Assembly (NCBI RefSeq): GCF_013342985.1
Contig: NZ_CP054490.1
Location: 1,054,001 to 1,118,000 of the forward strand
Length of the DNA stretch: 64,000 nt
Source of the DNA: Candidatus Ruthia endofausta
Lineage (GTDB): Bacteria; Pseudomonadota; Gammaproteobacteria; PS1; Pseudothioglobaceae
Reading direction: 5' to 3'
In this document: positions 36,238 through 45,535 of the stretch, in pieces
Layout: every line of letters begins with the position of its first letter
Numbering within the stretch: the stretch's first letter is position 1
Notes under the pieces: generated by a model
The model's database searches: none
What the model saw: only the letters and a program-made list of their open reading frames with translations
Told to the model about the DNA's origin: nothing
Translations under genes and position numbers: made by a program

Positions 36238-38967
36238 ATGCCACATAAACTAATTTTAATGGATGGCTCGGCTTTTTTGTTCCGGGCGTATTTTTCTACA
36301 TTAAAGCAAAACTTAACCAATCAAGATGGTTTTCCAACAGGTGCTATGTTTGGTGTTATCAATGCTATTAAACGCCTTCAGAAGCAGTACCCAGAGGCTA
36401 AGATAATCACCATATTTGACGCCAAAGGTGAAAATTTTAGACACGATATTTACCCGCAATACAAGGCACATAGAAAGCCAGCTTATAGCGAACTGGTGAT
36501 GCAAATTGAGCCTTTGTATGAGATTATCAAAGCCATGGGGTTTCATTTTATGTGTGTGCCTGAGGTTGAAGCGGATGATGTGATTGCTACCTTGAGTTGT
36601 TGTGCAAATCAAAATAATATCAAAACCATTATTGCTAGCAGTGATAAGGACTTAATGCAATTAGTGAATGCTAATATTTCTCAATTAGATATGAAAGGCA
36701 CTGTGTATGATTGCCAAGGTGTGGTTGAAAAAATGGGTGTTGCACCAGAGCAAATTTTAGATCTTTTAGCTTTAACTGGTGATAGTGCAGATAACATTCC
36801 TGGTGTGCCTAGTGTTGGTCCTAAAACAGCCATTAAATGGTTGCAAACTTATAGTGACATTGCGGGTGTTAAGGAAAATGCAACACAAATTAAGGGCAAA
36901 GTGGGCAAAAAGTTACGTGATAATTTTGATTTGTTGGATTTATCTCACCGGCTAGTTAAGCTTAAATTTGATGTTGTTTTGCCTTGTAATATTTTGGATG
37001 ACGAATCAGGACAAGATGTTACTAAACTGGCTGATTTGTATCAGCAGTATGGCTTTTCGATGTGGTTAAAGCAGTTGGGCAATGTGCCTATGTTAGAGCA
37101 AGGGGATACCCAAGCTATTAGAACAGCTGAAAGTACTAGCAATACGGTTGATGTTCTTGAGGATTATTCGCAGACATTGGTACTAGATTCGGATGTATTC
37201 AATACAATAGTTCATCGGCTTAAAACCTCAAAGACATTTGTATTTGACTTAGAAACCACGTCGCTAGATTATATGAATGCCACCATTGTTGGTTGGGTAT
37301 TTTTAGTTGATAAGGATAGTTTTTATGTGCCTGTTGGTCATGATTATTTAGATGCACCAAAGCAGTTGGATTTTAAGGAGGTGCTTAATCAACTAAAACC
37401 AATTTTAGAGGATACCTCTATTGGAAAAGTCGGACAAAATATAAAATATGATGCACATATCTTAGCCAATTACCAAATTGATTTGCAAGGCATTAGTGAT
37501 GACACTATGGTGAAATCTTATTGCTTAAATTCAGTTGCCACAAGGCATAATATGGATGATTTGAGCGAATATTACTTGAACCATCAAACCATTCATTTTG
37601 CTGATGTGGCAGGCAAAGGAAAAAAGCAAATTACTTTTAATCAAGTAGGTTTAGAAACTGCCTTTCCTTACGCTTGTGAAGACGTGATAGTGACGGATTT
37701 GTTAAATTATGTATTGGACGGGGAAATTGCCCAATATCCTAAGTTGGTTAAGTTGTATCAAAACTTAGAATTGCCACTAATCAAGGTGCTATTGCGTATG
37801 GAGCGTAATGGTGTGGAGTTAGATGTGAATGCGCTAAGCATTCAGCAATTAGATATTGTTCAGCAAATGAAGAATATTCAGGCTCAAGCGTTTGAATTAG
37901 CGGGTGGTGTATTTAATCTTGAGTCGCCTAAACAAATCCAGCAAATTCTATTTGAGCCTGAGGGTTTAGGACTAATGCCTTTGAAAAAAACCCCAAAAGG
38001 TGCACCCTCTACTAACGAAGAAGCACTAAAACTTTTAAATCACCCATTGGTTGATTTAGTATTAAGTTATCGCACATTAACCAAGCTTAACTCCACTTAT
38101 CTTGAAGCACTACCTAAGCAAATTGATTTAAATACACACAGACTTCACACCTCTTACCATCAAGCAGTAACTGCTACAGGGCGTCTTTCGTCAAGCAACC
38201 CAAATTTGCAAAATATCCCTATTCGTTCTGAACAAGGCGCACGTATTCGTGGTGCATTTGTTGCTGGCAAAGGTAACGTTATCATTGCTACTGATTACTC
38301 ACAAATTGAGCTGCGAATTATGGCTCAATTATCCCAAGATAAAAGTCTATTAGACGCTTTTAATCATAATAAAGACGTGCATAGTGCAACGGCATCAACC
38401 ATGTTTAATGTATCAATTGATGAAGTAACAAAAGAGCATCGTAGGCGCGCTAAAGCGATTAATTTTGGCTTGATTTATGGCATGAGCGCATTCGGATTGG
38501 CAAAACAAATTGATGTCTCTAGGGCTGAAGCAAAACAATATATTGATGCTTACTTTGATAATTATCCCGGTGTGCTCAACTACATGGGCAACACCAAAGA
38601 AAGCGCAAAAGTACAAGGCTATGTTGAAACCGTCATGGGCAGACGCCTGTATTTGCCACAAATTAATGCCAAGAATAAAACGCGACAACAACATGCGCTT
38701 AGAACCGCTATTAATGCACCTATGCAAGGCTCTTCAGCAGATATCATTAAAAGAGCCATGCTTGATATTCACACGTGGATTGGGCAAGATAATTCAGACA
38801 TTAGAATGATTATGCAAGTACACGATGAATTAGTATTTGAAGTAAGCGCATCAAAGGCTGACGAATTTGCCCATAAAATACAAGACTTAATGGTAAGTGC
38901 TTATCCACTGGATATTCCTCTTAAAGTGGATGTTGGCATTGATAACTCTTGGCAAGAAGCGCATTAA
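36238..38967 (+). CDS. polA: DNA polymerase I
   Basis: The 909-residue protein has three domains. The 5'-3' exonuclease (1-290) has ADDVIATLS and TGDSADNIPGVPSVGPKTA. The proofreading exonuclease (310-505) keeps its acidic residues in FVFDLETTSLDY, NIKYDAHIL and YACEDVIV, so it should be active. The polymerase domain has TATGRLSSSNPNLQNIPIR, ATDYSQIELRIMAQLS, RRAKAINFGLIYGMSAFGLA and MQVHDELVFEV. Length is standard. It starts a run polA-argS-ATPase-helicase with almost no gaps. Confidence 0.97.
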   Translation: MPHKLILMDGSAFLFRAYFSTLKQNLTNQDGFPTGAMFGVINAIKRLQKQYPEAKIITIFDAKGENFRHDIYPQYKAHRKPAYSELVMQIEPLYEIIKAMGFHFMCVPEVEADDVIATLSCCANQNNIKTIIASSDKDLMQLVNANISQLDMKGTVYDCQGVVEKMGVAPEQILDLLALTGDSADNIPGVPSVGPKTAIKWLQTYSDIAGVKENATQIKGKVGKKLRDNFDLLDLSHRLVKLKFDVVLPCNILDDESGQDVTKLADLYQQYGFSMWLKQLGNVPMLEQGDTQAIRTAESTSNTVDVLEDYSQTLVLDSDVFNTIVHRLKTSKTFVFDLETTSLDYMNATIVGWVFLVDKDSFYVPVGHDYLDAPKQLDFKEVLNQLKPILEDTSIGKVGQNIKYDAHILANYQIDLQGISDDTMVKSYCLNSVATRHNMDDLSEYYLNHQTIHFADVAGKGKKQITFNQVGLETAFPYACEDVIVTDLLNYVLDGEIAQYPKLVKLYQNLELPLIKVLLRMERNGVELDVNALSIQQLDIVQQMKNIQAQAFELAGGVFNLESPKQIQQILFEPEGLGLMPLKKTPKGAPSTNEEALKLLNHPLVDLVLSYRTLTKLNSTYLEALPKQIDLNTHRLHTSYHQAVTATGRLSSSNPNLQNIPIRSEQGARIRGAFVAGKGNVIIATDYSQIELRIMAQLSQDKSLLDAFNHNKDVHSATASTMFNVSIDEVTKEHRRRAKAINFGLIYGMSAFGLAKQIDVSRAEAKQYIDAYFDNYPGVLNYMGNTKESAKVQGYVETVMGRRLYLPQINAKNKTRQQHALRTAINAPMQGSSADIIKRAMLDIHTWIGQDNSDIRMIMQVHDELVFEVSASKADEFAHKIQDLMVSAYPLDIPLKVDVGIDNSWQEAH

Positions 38968-38973
38968 ATTATT

Positions 38974-40671
38974 ATGAAAGAACAACTACAAAAAATATTA
39001 AAGCAAGCTTTAAATTCATTAGTAAATGAGGGTGTACTTGAGAGTATACCTGAGAATATTCGTATCGATCATTCTAAAGATAAAACTCAAGGAGATTTTG
39101 CCTCAAATATTGCCATGGTTTTGGCAAAGCGAGCAGGGTTGATTCCAAAAGTATTAGCACAAAGAATTGTTGATAACTTGGGTAATAACACGCAGATTGA
39201 TAAAGTGCAAATTGTAGCCCCTGGGTTTATTAACTTTTTCATTTCCCAAGGTGAAAACATACAAATAATTGAGCAGATTATTAATCAAGCAGAGCACTAT
39301 GGAAAAGCGGACATAGGCAAAGGTCAGCGTATATTGTTGGAGTTTGTGTCTGCCAATCCAACTGGTCCACTCCATGTAGGGCACGGTCGCGGGGCGGCAT
39401 ATGGGGCAACGGTTGCTAATCTTTTACGCGGGATTGGGTTTGAGGTAGATTGTGAATATTATGTGAATGATGCAGGTCGGCAGATGGATATTTTGGCGAC
39501 TTCGGTTTATTTACGTTATGTTGAAACTGAGCAATTTCCAGATAACGGCTACAAAGGTGATTACATCTTCGACATTGCTAAAAAAATTAGTGGTGTAAAA
39601 AAGTTTAATATTTTTGATGGCGTTTGCAAAGATGAGAAAAACGGTGGCAACAAGGAAAAGCATATTGATGATTTAATTGCTAATTGCAAGTCTCAATTGG
39701 GGCATGATTACAAAAAAATTTTTGATTTGGCGATTAATCATATTTTGAGTGGTATTAAAATCGATTTGGCTGAGTTTGGTGTTGAATACCAGCAATGGTT
39801 TTCTGAACAGTCTTTGGTGGATAGTGGATTGAGCGAAAAAACCGTAAAAAAATTACAAGACTCAGGATACATTTATGAAAAAGAAGGTGCGCTTTGGTTT
39901 AAAACTACCGATTTTGGCGATGATTTAGACCGTGTTGTGGTGCGTGATAATGGCATGCACACTTATTTTGCCTCTGATATTGCCTATCATCTTGAAAAGT
40001 TTGAATGGGGCTATGACAAAATTATTAACATTTGGGGTGCTGACCACCATGGCTATATCGCAAGAGTTAAGGCGTCGATTAAGGCACTTGGTCACAATCC
40101 TGACAAATTGGAAATCTTACTGGTGCAGTTTGTTAACCTAATCAGAAAGGGTGAAAAAGTTTCTATGTCCACTCGTAGCGGCTCGTTTATTACTTTAGAA
40201 AAATTGTGCAAGGAAGTTAGCAATGATGCAGCACGTTTTTTCTATATTTTTCGTAAGTCTGAGCAACATATGGATTTTGACTTGGATTTAGCCAAATCCA
40301 AGAGTAATGAAAATCCTGTGTTTTACATCCAATACGCTCACGTTCGAATTTGTTCCGTGCTGGGCAAAGCGCAGGGAAGTCAAATGCCAGATTTGGCATT
40401 GCTTAATAATGAATACGAGCAAACACTCATTAAGCAACTTAGTCGTTATGCCGACACAGTTAAAAACGCCGCCATCAATTATGAGCCACATGTTTTAGCC
40501 TATTATTTGCGTGATTTGGCTGGCGATTTCCACAGTTATTACAACAACAGCGAGTTTTTGATTGAGGATAAAATTCTGCAAGCTTCTCGCTTGAAACTTG
40601 TCATTGCCACAAAGCAAATACTTCGTAATGGATTGGGTTTATTGGGTATGTCTGCACCTGATAAAATGTAA
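38974..40671 (+). CDS. argS: Arginyl-tRNA synthetase
   Basis: The 565-residue class I synthetase charges tRNA-Arg. The N-terminal additional domain precedes the HIGH-type motif [20 protein letters not shown] near residue 125. The helix [20 protein letters not shown] and [14 protein letters not shown] near 355 are specific. The KMSKS-like loop is [13 protein letters not shown], as in many ArgRS. The C terminus [13 protein letters not shown] fits. It begins 6 bases after polA and ends 3 bases before the next start codon. Confidence 0.97.
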
Positions 40672-40674
40672 ATT

Positions 40675-42130
40675 ATGGATAATTTATCGCACATTAAAAT
40701 CAAAGGCTTTAAGTCTATTAAAGAGCTAGATCTAGAAATGAAATCAATTAATGTTTTGATTGGTGCGAATGCCTCTGGCAAGAGCAATTTCATTTCTGTT
40801 TTTAGACTGTTAAATGTTCTTTATCAGAGAAAATTACAAACTTATTTTGCTAAAAATGGAAGAGCAGAGGAGGGGATTCTTGCATTTTGGCAGTAGCACA
40901 ACTGATGAAATATCAATATCTTTAACGCTAAAGCGAAATAAGTATTTCGCAAGATTTATTAAAGATAATGAAAATGATATATTAATTATTAATAGTGATT
41001 TCGCAGGTTTTTATTCGCAAATAAGTGAAATTGATTACAATCCATCTATAAGTTATAACTCTTCTGAAAGTGATATTAAAAATAGTATAAAACCAATAGT
41101 TGTTAAATCTAGAGACTACCTAAAACAATGTAAGTTATATCATTTTCATGACACATCAGAAAAGGCAAAATTTAAGTCACCACAGGATATTGATAATAAT
41201 GATTTCTTATGGAGTGATGCAGGTAATTTGGCGCCGTTCTTATTAGGGTTAAAAAAAGACTTCAATGACGATTATCAAAATATTGTCCAAGCAGTGCAAA
41301 CAGTTGCACCTTATTTCCATGATTTTGATTTAAAAAAAGACAATAAAGATGTTTTATTAAGGTGGCAACATAAAAACGATCTAGAGGGCGCTGGATTTTC
41401 TGCAAACAATTTATCTGATGGTACCGCAAAATTTATTTGTATGGTGACTCTGTTTTTACAGCCTAAGGATATGCATCCTAAAACCATTGTGTTAGATGAA
41501 CCAGAAATTGGACTACATCTGGATGCACTGACTGTATTATCTGAAATTATCAAAGCCGTAGTAAATGATGGCTCACAAGTCATTATTTCCACTCAACCTG
41601 TTACGCTTGCTAATTGCTTTGAACCTGATGATTTTATTGTTGTAGATTATGAAAACGATGAGTTTAAATTTGAAAGATTTGGTAAAGATAAACAAGAGGC
41701 GTTAAAAGAGTGGTTTGAGAATTATCAGATGGGTACAACTTGGGAAGAAAATTTACTCGGCGGGTATGCCAAAATGACAAGACTTCTCATTCCTGTTGAG
41801 GGTAAGTCAGAAAGAAAATTTGTCGACCAAATACTGAAGCTATATTTATCAGATTTTAACGTTTACGCTTACAATCCTCAGGGCATGAAAAGCAATATTA
41901 GTGTTGATAGAGTCAGTGAAAAGTTAAATAGTCTTATACATAATTGTGATTTCGTAACAACCCTGTATGAATTTAACGATTTAGAGGGAGTTAATAATTC
42001 TAAAGAAATATCATCCCAGCGTATTGGAAAGAATGCAAAGTACATCAAAATTCAGAATGCGCTAAAAATACGAGAAGAATGCCAAGGTTTTAACGCTTGA
42101 CTAACGCAATTAGAAAGTCTGAATGAATGA
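40675..42130 (+). pseudogene. Broken predicted ATPase (AAA_21-type) joined to a DUF4276 (TOPRIM-like) domain
   Basis: The first frame (40675-40896) has ABC/SMC-like ATPase features, KIKGFKSIKELDLEM and Walker A LIGANASGKSNFISVFRLL, then ends in a stop. A single +1 shift near 40875 restores LHFGSSTTDEISISL. Downstream are LSDGTAKFICMVTLFLQP and Walker B IVLDEPEIGLHLDALTVL near 41490. From about 41782, MTRLLIPVEGKSERKFVDQI looks like the start of DUF4276, usually a separate gene. Its middle is missing, and IREECQGFNA ends at TGA (42098) where relatives have Trp; LTQLESLNE follows to 42130. These three lesions make it dead. OLD-like ATPase/TOPRIM pairs often act in phage defence; that role is inference. 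Confidence 0.8.
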
Positions 42131-45100
42131 CCAAGTCCAACGCCAACAAGCTTTAGATATTAGCCGGTCTTTTATCGTTCAAGCGCCTGCGGGCTCGGGC
42201 AAAACGGAGCTATTGACTCAGCGTTATTTGAAATTGTTATCAGTTAGTGCTTCACCTGAGAGTGTAATTGTAATGACCTTTACTAAAAAAGCAGTAAGTG
42301 AGTTGACTACTCGAGTGATTGGGTCTTTAAAATCGGCTCAAGGCAATCGACCAAACGAGCCACATAAGCAAATTACTTACGATTTGGCTAAAGTATTAGG
42401 AAAATCTAAGGCATTTGATTGGCAATTACTAAACACGCCTGAACGGCTTAAAATTTCAACGATTGATGGTTTGTCAAGTTTAATTACCAGTCGTTATCCA
42501 AGTAAGAATCAATTAGTGCCCAAGCAAATCATAGCTCAAAACTGGGCAAGAAATGATATTTATCTTCAAGCTGCCAAGCAGACGTTATTGGCAATTGATG
42601 AGTCTGAATATCAAAATAGTATTGAGTCGGTGCTTCTATATTTGGATAATAATGTTAATAAGTTTTATCGGTTGATTACAGATATGCTAGCTAAGCGTGA
42701 TCAGTGGCTTTTGAAATTGTACCAACATGGTGTACTTAATATTGAAACCTTGCAGTTGAGTTCTGAAAGGGTTATCACTCAACATTTATTGTTGTTAAAA
42801 AATGAGGCAGACTGTTATTTTGATGCTACTTTTTTTGAACTGTTAAAAGATAATACTAAGCCAGAGCTTATGAAAATTCAAAGTGTGCCAGATGCCACTA
42901 TTGAATCGCTAGAGACTTGGAGAGACTTGTGTCAGCTGTGTTTAACCACTCAGGGTAAGTGGCGTACATCATTGAATAAAAATAACGGTTTTCCCACAGA
43001 GTTAAAAACGCAAAAACAATCCATTATTAAAATTTTTCAAGATTTGTCTAGCCAACAGCAATTAAAGGAATTATTAGCAGGGGTTAAACAATTGCCTGAT
43101 GTTGATTTTTCAACCAATCAAATTAATGCCCTTCAAGACATTGCACAAGTATTAAAGTTAGCTGTTACTCAATTAAATATTTTGTTTGATGTTCATCAAA
43201 CGCATGATTTTATCCAAGTTGCCTTGGATGCAGAGCAAGCGTTTGATGAACATCAAGTCAGTAATATTGCACTATTTTTAGATAATAAAGTCCAGCATAT
43301 TTTAATTGATGAGTTTCAAGATACGTCAGCCACCCAGTTTGCTTTATTGGAAAAATTGCTTGCTAGTTGGCAAATAGGTGATGGTAAAACACTGTTTTTA
43401 GTGGGTGATCCCATGCAATCTATTTACTTGTTTAGGCAATCTCAGGTGGGTTTGTTTTTGCAGGTACGGGCACGAGGCATTGCTAATATTAAACCTGAAT
43501 TTTTACAACTGAGTACTAATTTTCGTTCCTCTAAATCTGTGGTTGAGGGTAATAATAAAATATTTTCAAAGATATTTCCTCAACATGAAGATGCTTATAA
43601 AGGCGCGATTAAGTATGAATATTCACAGGCTAATTCCGTTGATGAAGATGAAAATGCCATTAACTTTTATCCATTTGCGCATAAACGTTATGATTTTGAG
43701 GCACAAAAAGTGCTTGAAATTATTCAAAATAATCCAACAAAAGAGATTGTTATTTTGGTGAGAAACCGTGCGCATTTAGGTGATATTGTGCCCGTTTTGA
43801 AGTGTGCTAATATTGAATTTGAAGCATTAAAAACAGCCCCATTGAGGGAAGATTTATTTACTCGTGATTTACTTAGTTTGACTCGAGCACTTAAACATTT
43901 AGGTGATAAACTTGCTTGGTTGGCCATTTTAAGAGCGCCTTGGTGTGGCTTGTTGTTAGAAGATTTACTTGTATTGTCACAACAAGACGGGCGTGTTATT
44001 TTTGATTTAATTCAGGATAAGCAAACTTTACAAAATTTAAGCAAAGATGGACAATCACGCATGCGAAATTTTGTCCATACTGTACGTGATATTATTAATC
44101 AGAAATCTAGGTTTAGTTTCACGAGGGTGCTTGAATTTGCCATTAATCAGTTAGCACCTCAGAGTTCCTTATCCGTTAAGCAGTCTATGATTAAAACCCA
44201 ATTCTTGCAAATTATTTATGATTGTGAGTCTGCACAACAGCTTGATATTGGAACCATTAATCAAATGTTAGATGAGTTGTATACACCCAGTGTAAATTCA
44301 CGAATTAAGCTAATGACCATCCATGAAGCTAAAGGTTTGGAGTTTGAGTTGGTTGTTATTCTTGGGTTGGGTAGAGCGCCACAAAATAATAAACCGTCCA
44401 TCATTCACTTGCAAGAGTTTAGCAATCGGTCGTTATTATTAGCCCCGATAAGGCCTTATACGCAACTAGATGACAGCCGTACTTATACCTATTTAAAGCA
44501 TATTGAATCACAGCAAAATAAGTTTGAAACGATGCGTTTATTGTACGTGGCAATGACACGTGCTAAGCATGAAATCTATTTATTAGGAACGTTAAACCAG
44601 AGCAATCAAGCTAGTAGCAATACTTTTTTAAAACTATTAGCACCTATATTTCAGCATCAATTTGACAAGCTTACACTATCAACTATTGAGGATAATCAGC
44701 CACCCATTCGAGCACCAGAGTTGGTTCGTTATGTTAAGCCTTTAGAATATGATAATTTTCTTGATGAGAGTATGGAGGAAATGGATTTTCAGTTGAGTGT
44801 TGATTTACAATATAAAAGCCTGCTTGGCACTCTGTTGCATCAATATTATGAAGACGGATTGTTCTCGCCAGACAGACAAAGTATAAGTGTAAGATTGGTG
44901 GAATGCGGTGTTGGCAATACGGATATTGACAGTTATATCGATTTTATTGTCAACATGCTTAATTTAACGAAACAAGACAAACACTTTTCTTGGCTATTCA
45001 AACAAAGAACATCAACCCAAGTTGAGGCAGAGTTTATAAGTGACAAGCGTAGCGTTATTATTGATCGATTATTTATTGATGAAGATATTTTGTGGATTAT

Positions 45101-45281
45101 TGATTTTAAAACCACAAGACAAGCGAATGATGAATCAATAGCACAATTTATACAAAGGCAAAAAGCCAAACACACTCAACAATTATTATCCTATAAAGTG
45201 GCTTTATCAGCGTGTTATTCAATGGAAATAAAGTGTGTTCTATATTATCCAGCAGTACAAGAATTGATTGAAATTGGCTAA
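42123..45281 (+). CDS. addA: UvrD-type helicase with C-terminal nuclease, AddA/RecB-like
   Basis: The 1052-residue protein begins QRQQALDISRSFIVQAPAGS with Walker A APAGSGKTELLTQRYL near residue 18. MTFTKKAVSELTTRVI (motif Ia), ILIDEFQDTSATQFALLEKL near 398, LVGDPMQSIYLFRQSQVG near 425, MTIHEAKGLEFELVVILGLG near 738 and MRLLYVAMTRAKHEIYLLGT near 805 are helicase motifs. A PD-(D/E)XK nuclease ends it: LLGTLLHQYYEDG and WIIDFKTTRQ with upstream IIDRLFID. It should process double-strand breaks. An addB partner is not visible here; it may be elsewhere. The ATG lies at the tail of the broken DUF4276 gene. Confidence 0.92.
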   Translation: MNDQVQRQQALDISRSFIVQAPAGSGKTELLTQRYLKLLSVSASPESVIVMTFTKKAVSELTTRVIGSLKSAQGNRPNEPHKQITYDLAKVLGKSKAFDWQLLNTPERLKISTIDGLSSLITSRYPSKNQLVPKQIIAQNWARNDIYLQAAKQTLLAIDESEYQNSIESVLLYLDNNVNKFYRLITDMLAKRDQWLLKLYQHGVLNIETLQLSSERVITQHLLLLKNEADCYFDATFFELLKDNTKPELMKIQSVPDATIESLETWRDLCQLCLTTQGKWRTSLNKNNGFPTELKTQKQSIIKIFQDLSSQQQLKELLAGVKQLPDVDFSTNQINALQDIAQVLKLAVTQLNILFDVHQTHDFIQVALDAEQAFDEHQVSNIALFLDNKVQHILIDEFQDTSATQFALLEKLLASWQIGDGKTLFLVGDPMQSIYLFRQSQVGLFLQVRARGIANIKPEFLQLSTNFRSSKSVVEGNNKIFSKIFPQHEDAYKGAIKYEYSQANSVDEDENAINFYPFAHKRYDFEAQKVLEIIQNNPTKEIVILVRNRAHLGDIVPVLKCANIEFEALKTAPLREDLFTRDLLSLTRALKHLGDKLAWLAILRAPWCGLLLEDLLVLSQQDGRVIFDLIQDKQTLQNLSKDGQSRMRNFVHTVRDIINQKSRFSFTRVLEFAINQLAPQSSLSVKQSMIKTQFLQIIYDCESAQQLDIGTINQMLDELYTPSVNSRIKLMTIHEAKGLEFELVVILGLGRAPQNNKPSIIHLQEFSNRSLLLAPIRPYTQLDDSRTYTYLKHIESQQNKFETMRLLYVAMTRAKHEIYLLGTLNQSNQASSNTFLKLLAPIFQHQFDKLTLSTIEDNQPPIRAPELVRYVKPLEYDNFLDESMEEMDFQLSVDLQYKSLLGTLLHQYYEDGLFSPDRQSISVRLVECGVGNTDIDSYIDFIVNMLNLTKQDKHFSWLFKQRTSTQVEAEFISDKRSVIIDRLFIDEDILWIIDFKTTRQANDESIAQFIQRQKAKHTQQLLSYKVALSACYSMEIKCVLYYPAVQELIEIG

Positions 45282-45297
45282 ATATTTGGTTACTCAG

Positions 45298-45535
45298 TTA
45301 GATTATGTTGGTTTGCTCTTTAATGAGTTTATCTACTCCTGCTAGTAGCACCCTACCATCTGTGAGCATAATGCCATTTTTTGTAATATCAACAGATAAT
45401 TCTGACGATCTTTTGTCATCATAAACTGCTACGACCGGATGGCTTATTTAGAACTAGCTCATTATTTAAATAAATAAGTGTATTAACTGTGCCCAAGTCA
45501 ATTGAAAGATTCTTTGGTTTAAATAGCTTGAACAT
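45298..45535 (-). pseudogene. mreB: mreB remnant with nearly all of the gene deleted
   Basis: Reading down from 45535 gives MFKLFKPKNLSIDLGTVNTL then IYLNNELVLNKPS, the N terminus of the actin-like MreB with its phosphate-binding DLGTVNT loop. One frameshift later VVAVYDDKRSSEL continues the N-terminal domain. It is then joined to NGIMLTDGRVLLAGVDKLIK, which matches the distant C-terminal LTGGGALL...LDKLL region of MreB. About 250 codons between are gone. The remnant ends at a stop near 45298. MreB shapes rod cells, so these cells may be round unless another copy exists. Confidence 0.85.

Follow-up and report, generated by a model that had tools for sequence, protein, structure and literature searches.

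HEC-01 is a candidate defence system of the PADLOC database that pairs an OLD/Rad50-like ATPase (HEC-01A) with a DUF4276 protein (HEC-01B). Our literature searches found the system named once, in a list, in the accessible text of PMC12724379, and returned no paper on DUF4276. Integrase-free hotspots whose content is exchanged at flanking core genes are described in the available part of Oliveira 2017 (PMC5635113), and for core defence hotspots of P. aeruginosa the available part of PMC10250203 leaves transfer via flanking recombination as an open possibility; a search on argS or addA with defense islands gave nothing relevant among the matches listed. Here we analyse a window of 64,000 nucleotides from the single-contig genome (1,188,809 bp) of Candidatus Ruthia endofausta (genome G000), whose nearest relatives are clam symbionts. 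The window contains a wrecked HEC-01 pair at 40675-42130 on the plus strand, seated between argS (38974-40671) and addA (42123-45281). We consider it very probable that this pair, OLD-like in function and now dead with at least six lesions, arrived by recombination through the ends of the core genes and carried the 3′ end of argS along. The genes and gene pieces are as follows.

38974 to 40671, plus strand: argS (ArgS, 565 aa), intact in the ORF call and mosaic by trees and diagnostic sites, with a native 5′ part and a 3′ part of other-genus type
40675 to 40896, plus strand: N-terminal piece of HEC-01A with Walker A GANASGKS, recognised by Pfam and PADLOC and out of frame after about 40872
40877 to 41761, plus strand: remainder of HEC-01A in a second frame, with the LSDGTAKF signature and Walker B (PADLOC 2e-88)
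41774 to 42130, plus strand: HEC-01B (DUF4276) remnant, start codon kept, middle gone, C-terminus recognisable to the stop at 42128-42130
42123 to 45281, plus strand: addA (1052 aa), intact, with an 8-bp overlap between its start and the former HEC-01B stop that intact relatives also have

Profile searches with the unrepaired pieces against PADLOC-DB 2.0.0 matched HEC-01A (PDLC04175) at E 2e-25 for the N-terminal piece and 2e-88 for the rest, and HEC-01B (PDLC04188) at E 2e-10, directly 3′ of HEC-01A on the same strand. Pfam placed AAA_15 (4e-9) and AAA_21 (2e-7) on the N-terminal piece 40675-40896, and AAA_21 (7e-14) together with a partial DUF4276 (2e-5, positions 1-68 of 192) on the ORF 40814-42100, a frame of 428 codons that differs from the frame of the N-terminal piece and carries LSDGTAKF and TIVLDEPEIGLH. 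Both families named in the original prediction, AAA_21 and DUF4276, were matched even with the pieces left as they stand, and the ATPase it described was recovered with Walker A on the N-terminal piece and Walker B on the remainder. An RNA element or terminator was considered as the feature and set aside, with 0 Rfam matches in 38900-45400; promoter-like sites numbered 9 against 7.7 expected and terminator-like sites 4 against 1.3 expected, and repeats were unremarkable. Plasmid copies, sought by DNA similarity, were not found. Inside addA, at 43186-43256 of the window, lies a 21-nt inverted repeat, 95% complementary, with 29 nt between its arms.

Intact counterparts of the pair occupy the same site in related genomes. 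Seven genomes of the family hold an open pair between argS and addA (G008, G031, G085, G089, G090, G094 and G098), two more have an incomplete one (G088, cut by a contig end, and G084, partial), and the G008 pair matches its profiles strongly (HEC-01A 2.3e-128, HEC-01B 4.4e-56, DUF4276 1.1e-44). In these intact relatives HEC-01A and HEC-01B are two genes, the stop of the first overlapping the start of the second, in agreement with the expectation that DUF4276 is normally encoded separately. From a whole-genome collection we fetched 62 loci with the ATPase profile, 45 of which have a full-length HEC-01A ORF; HEC-01B adjoins it in 44 of these, 43 times as a separate gene or gene pieces and once in a deletion chimera (L092), and the 45th locus (L087) is cut by a contig end. 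Two IMG/VR contigs (L161 and L162, about 37 kb, viral) also encode full-length HEC-01A relatives, at 43% and 39% identity.

Lesions of the window's copy were called against the intact pair of G008 and the remnant of G002 (Ca. Ruthia sp. Cpac_8_S14, the nearest relative), aligned without repair and all read from one assembly.

40868 to 40877, plus strand: first frameshift, four extra bases at about 40872 (net +1) relative to G002 and G008, its placement dependent on the alignment
41759 to 41765, plus strand: second frameshift, a single additional base within a run of G at about 41762 relative to G002 and G008
41966 to 41967, plus strand: point of a 207-bp deletion in HEC-01B that removes the invariant residues E82, E105 and E107 (D65 reads E)
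about 42008, plus strand: 3-bp deletion in HEC-01B, from the alignment with relatives
42060 to 42061, plus strand: point of a 27-bp deletion in HEC-01B, from the alignment with relatives
42098 to 42100, plus strand: in-frame TGA at the invariant Trp187, which is Trp in 32 of 32 HEC-01B proteins of alignment A3

Two frameshifts, three deletions and one nonsense codon make at least six lesions, and neither gene is open and complete. The original prediction had listed three independent lesions (a +1 frameshift near 40875, a missing middle of DUF4276, and TGA at 42098 in place of Trp with the family C-terminal sequence continuing to 42130); each of these is present and the sequence beyond the TGA indeed runs on to the stop; the count itself was too low. 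It had also read the ATPase and the start of DUF4276 in one frame. That frame exists; as an architecture it does not hold, being itself a lesion, since the extra base at about 41762 alone joins the two and relatives have an overlapping stop and start there. A natural ATPase-DUF4276 fusion was accordingly rejected, HEC-01A and HEC-01B being separate elsewhere (43 of 45 loci).

The damage extends to residues. Eight of the 15 HEC-01B residues that are invariant in 32 proteins are changed or lost (G39, D65, E82, E105, E107, T147, P149 and W187, alignment-dependent near gaps), and of 144 ATPase positions that do not vary among eight relatives, 10 differ in the window, a raw count taken with no leave-one-out baseline. 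Judged from its sequence the window's HEC-01 system is dead, because the majority of the nuclease's invariant acidic residues are missing and the ATPase no longer keeps its frame. That the open frame 40814-42100 might encode a shortened fusion protein with a kept or gained function is very unlikely: the frame is open and the HEC-01B deletions of 207, 27 and 3 bp are all multiples of three, but it has no Walker A, the nuclease residues E82, E105 and E107 are gone and D65, T147 and others are changed, changes relative to G002 show no third-position excess, and the one further fusion we found is a deletion chimera in G087 that is put together differently. The occurrence of three deletions between 41966 and 42061 that all keep the reading frame in a dead gene may be chance or may reflect trimming while the gene was still translated.

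Five genomes of the genus (g1) carry HEC-01, namely the window's G000 and G002, G004, G008 and G010, and four of the five are broken in different ways. G002 shares none of the window's lesions and has its own, with Walker A changed to GANDPGKS, a large deletion in the ATPase, and frameshifts; no inactivating lesion common to G000 and G002 was seen in the alignment, and on that alignment their visible lesions arose separately. In G010 only a stub of 24 codons is left, in which the start of the ATPase is joined to the end of DUF4276 at a short repeat, and in G004 the two halves have been separated, each broken end bears IS-like transposase sequence, and argS lies 106 kb from addA. G008 (Ca. Ruthturnera CSMAG_640) is the only carrier in the genus with an intact pair. 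Because genomes of the mussel-symbiont genus g4 are damaged too (G083 and G087, and G084, which is partial or damaged), decay is wider than this genus. The 24-codon frame of G010 (L029) still overlaps the addA start by 8 bp, and the last frame of each damaged copy in G002, G010 and G087 continues into addA, as though coupling of translation had survived. The ATG that replaces GTG at the addA start of G000 and G002 was considered as compensation for lost coupling and dropped; the same ATG and the bases soon after it occur in the g4 relatives G024, G083 and G085, so it probably came with the donor tract.

The G000 and G002 remnants differ at 24, 13 and 19 sites in codon positions 1, 2 and 3, with no third-position excess, and are 91.5% identical over 668 bases, compared with dS of 0.115-0.127 and dN of 0.015-0.020 in argS and addA; this spread and identity, set against the flanks, indicate near-free drift for much of the time since the two lineages split. 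At equal dS, dN/dS is 0.31 for G000-G008 versus 0.11 for G008-G089; values for G000 against seven other relatives are 0.08-0.22, and G008-G031 reaches up to 0.32. Counted by branch with G089 as outgroup, G000 has 21 nonsynonymous and 33 synonymous changes and G008 has 7 and 11, so the nonsynonymous share is not raised on the window branch and the branch counts by themselves do not argue for relaxation. Support for relaxation comes only from the equal-dS comparison with G008-G089, the lost residues and the counts by codon position. Around residues 75-150 of HEC-01A in the window and its relatives, the variable middle appears by eye to be G094-like and the C-terminal part G008-like, and the gene may be a mosaic.

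These comparisons also bear on the possibility of sequencing or assembly errors in an otherwise intact pair. In favour of such errors, two lesions alter a single base or a short run within stretches of G, as read from the assembly; the explanation is nonetheless extremely improbable given deletions of 207 and 27 bp, the loss of invariant residues, the near-equal spread of changes over codon positions relative to G002, the fact that G002, G004 and G010 each broke this pair independently, and intact argS and addA on both sides. As read from the alignments, the window remnant is a recently inactivated HEC-01 pair in ordinary decay.

To place the function of the intact pair we turned to structure. 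A model of HEC-01A (pLDDT 87.2) resembles Rad50/SMC heads, OLD, PtuA, GajA and AriA, and profile A4 of HEC-01A has the OLD-family protein 6p74 as its best PDB match (E 8e-13), which supports its assignment as a predicted OLD/Rad50-type ATPase. For HEC-01B, Foldseek ranked OLD C-terminal nuclease domains first (E 1-3e-3) when given a model of an intact relative's protein (pLDDT 92.4), and VIA Z scores against OLD C-terminal domains were 10.6, 9.8, 9.7 and 9.3, with PH0156 next at 9.1 and unrelated folds then near 7. The fold match to the OLD nuclease is moderate (rmsd about 4 Å, Foldseek E 1e-3) and sequence comparison with solved proteins gave no match at E up to 1; the modelled structure supports a TOPRIM-like nuclease fold for HEC-01B. 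The suggested relation to OLD/TOPRIM pairs is therefore supported, the evidence being structural for the DUF4276 protein and sequence-based for the ATPase. In the intact pair, the OLD/Rad50-type ATPase would sense infection and license the TOPRIM-like DUF4276 nuclease, which would then damage nucleic acid.

We also examined 123 ORFs that flank HEC-01 at 37 loci of genomes outside the family. Genes for type III and type I restriction, HmaA, DISARM and BREX-like functions are common among them, with up to 8 type III methyltransferases, 6 type III restriction enzymes, 3 HmaA, 3 DrmD and 3 BrxH at E ≤1e-20, as raw counts of overlapping categories taken from the 25 most frequent families with no matched background. 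Fold likeness and flanking restriction-type genes together make defence the best reading of HEC-01, and by analogy the pair may have anti-phage activity. The PADLOC calls, the intact pair at the same locus in seven family genomes and these restriction-type neighbours outside the family uphold the proposal of a defence-system remnant.

The junction was sought in 83 family genomes, 72 of which have argS and addA together on a single contig. At most 60 bp separate the two genes in 56 of the 72, and more than that in 16, of which 15 hold HEC-01, AbiL or their remnants: 13 with HEC-01 or a remnant, G024 with an AbiL pair and G011 with an AbiL remnant, in the form of a short AbiLii-like tail read by eye. 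The sixteenth, G019, has a gap of 78 bp and was left out of the content reading. AbiL also lies next to addA in the HEC-01 carriers G083, G085, G089 and G094, and in G084, which lacks argS, assigned by profile match in G085 and by likeness in G083, G084, G089 and G094. RloB gave no match at E 1e-3 in the 12 genomes of the genus. The AbiL cassettes of L066/G085 and L030/G011, lying just after the argS stop or a displaced copy of it, have an apparent shared leader with a TTGACAAAAACTGTCAA-like palindrome, which by its sequence may be the AbiL promoter and operator. In G083 the order is argS, HEC-01, a 5′ addA piece joined to a 3′ argS piece, AbiL and addA, and in G085 a displaced 3′ fragment of argS lies between HEC-01 and AbiL; both arrangements look like scars of one cassette entering next to an older one.

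No integrase or recombinase was recognised by eye in 18 junction stretches of 17 genomes, reading ORFs of at least 60 aa (at least 90 aa on the minus strand), except for transposase-like ORFs in G004, the only such junction, where they break the HEC-01 pair. On this reading, the argS|addA junction is an integrase-free (recombinase-free) hotspot of a kind already described.

The flanking genes indicate how the cassette arrived. In all five HEC-01 carriers of the genus a foreign tract ends inside both argS and addA, with native flanks outside; it comprises the last ~300 bp of argS and the first ~25-45 bp of addA, in the type of another genus (mussel symbionts, g4). We scored 30 diagnostic sites in argS and 16 in addA, chosen without looking at the carriers, which in the window delimit two donor-type segments.

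40366 to 40671, plus strand: donor-type 3′ end of argS, 19 of 21 sites donor-type, 2 neither and 0 native, left breakpoint at about 40189-40366
42123 to 42167, plus strand: donor-type start of addA, sites +22 and +44 donor-type and 14 later sites native, right breakpoint at about 42167-42246

Upstream of the first segment the argS sites are native from 39153 to 39732 and mixed between 39838 and 40189, so the left edge may be layered. Comparable tracts, differently bounded, occur in G010, G004 and G008. In genus members that lack cargo, argS identity to the window is about 73-92% and falls to 28-69% in most of the last sliding windows; the carriers show no such drop. The argS 5′ tree groups the genus (98/98); the 3′ tree places the five carriers inside a g4-type clade (100/99), holding the genus together there is rejected (AU p 0.00028), and the g3 carrier G094 follows the same pattern.

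A single acquisition in the genus followed by vertical descent was rejected, since the carriers are not a clade in trees of polA (AU 2e-7) or addA (AU 1e-39); three or four state changes are needed, in a count where deletion, re-gain and recombination with empty sites look the same. It is likewise improbable that HEC-01 was ancestral to the genus and cleanly lost from the cargo-free members with no transfer. Loss can give polymorphic presence, and recA is present; against this history, cargo-free argS ends group within the genus while those of carriers are of g4 type, a 3′ tree constrained to keep the genus as one group fails the AU test (p 0.0003), and the g3 carrier repeats the pattern. Two g4 genomes, G014 and G086, are without cargo, yet G014 has the foreign-type argS end, and a foreign argS end alone therefore does not require HEC-01.

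Site-specific integrase insertion at the argS 3′ end, with the gene end rebuilt as by islands in tRNA genes, might account for the replaced argS end in five of five genus carriers and for the displaced argS 3′ fragment downstream of HEC-01 in G085. We regard it as unlikely, because no integrase was recognised by eye among the junction ORFs, foreign sequence extends into addA too, the left and right edges vary among carriers, and in G083 an addA piece is joined to an argS piece. In the account we favour, DNA from a mussel-symbiont-like lineage (genus code g4) would have brought the pair in through double homologous recombination, with conserved argS stretches (17 protein letters) and the start of addA serving as arms and no recombinase needed; the donor is defined as a lineage type rather than as one genome. 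recA is found in 7 of the 12 genus genomes, including all five carriers. comEC gave one uninterrupted match in G004 and G008 only, was fragmentary in G003, G007, G010 and G011, and was not found in G000, G001, G002, G005, G006 and G009, a distribution from which a DNA-uptake route existed in the genus and is now closing.

The part of ArgS that was switched is the C-terminal domain, which we take to be the anticodon-binding domain. It is conceivable, at very long odds, that the foreign domain would shield the cell from, or tune it to, the ATPase/TOPRIM pair which that cell carries, as could be the case were tRNA-Arg a target of the nuclease, and that pair and argS end would have to travel as a unit among deep-sea symbionts.

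HsdR is found in 2 of the 12 genomes of the genus, uninterrupted in G008 and broken in G011, and Cas1 in 2 of 12, uninterrupted in G008 and broken in G010; G008, the sole genus genome with an intact HEC-01 pair, also holds these other systems, and their joint survival there alone fits relaxed selection during genome reduction. Relaxed selection under a host-restricted way of life is the probable reason for the loss of HEC-01, and the suggestion that symbionts would lose such a system holds as a pattern, with four of five carriers broken differently and HsdR and Cas1 each so rare; a scarcity of phages, the cause put forward with that suggestion, may lie behind it. The locus offers a natural series for one candidate defence system, from intact pair through frame lesions and large deletions to a stub of 24 codons and, finally, an empty site. 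With a footprint left in each flank it stands above a plain pseudogene, showing the breakpoints of a defence cassette that was exchanged by way of two gene ends, one in a tRNA-synthetase gene and the other in a repair gene. Transfer without an integrase is proposed for core defence hotspots in the available part of PMC10250203, and at argS|addA its footprint can be counted. These observations suggest the junction, in related symbionts and in free-living bacteria alike, as a place to look for new defence genes.

Compared with known systems, the window remnant is closest to PADLOC's HEC-01, since both profiles match its parts in order on one strand and cover the intact pairs of relatives at this site over their full length; it departs from the system in being broken. 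Within this family HEC-01 stands alone or with AbiL between argS and addA, while in other places type III restriction or Hma genes are often found beside it. AbiL (AbiLi and AbiLii; AAA_21 and RloB) resembles it as a pair of ATPase and small protein at the same site in relatives, but is built from other protein families. HEC-01 shares a Rad50/OLD-like ATPase and an OLD-like nuclease fold with OLD-family nucleases, Gabija GajA, PARIS AriA/AriB and the retron-Eco8 OLD, and differs from OLD-family proteins, which hold ATPase and nuclease in one polypeptide, in using two genes and a small HEC-01B. As for the site, argS|addA agrees with the integrase-free core hotspots in the available parts of PMC5635113 and PMC10250203 in its fixed core flanks, changing defence cargo and intact junctions in which no mobile-element genes were recognised, and differs from the hotspots as described there in carrying single cassettes of one or two gene pairs whose breakpoints can be read in both flanks and across genera.
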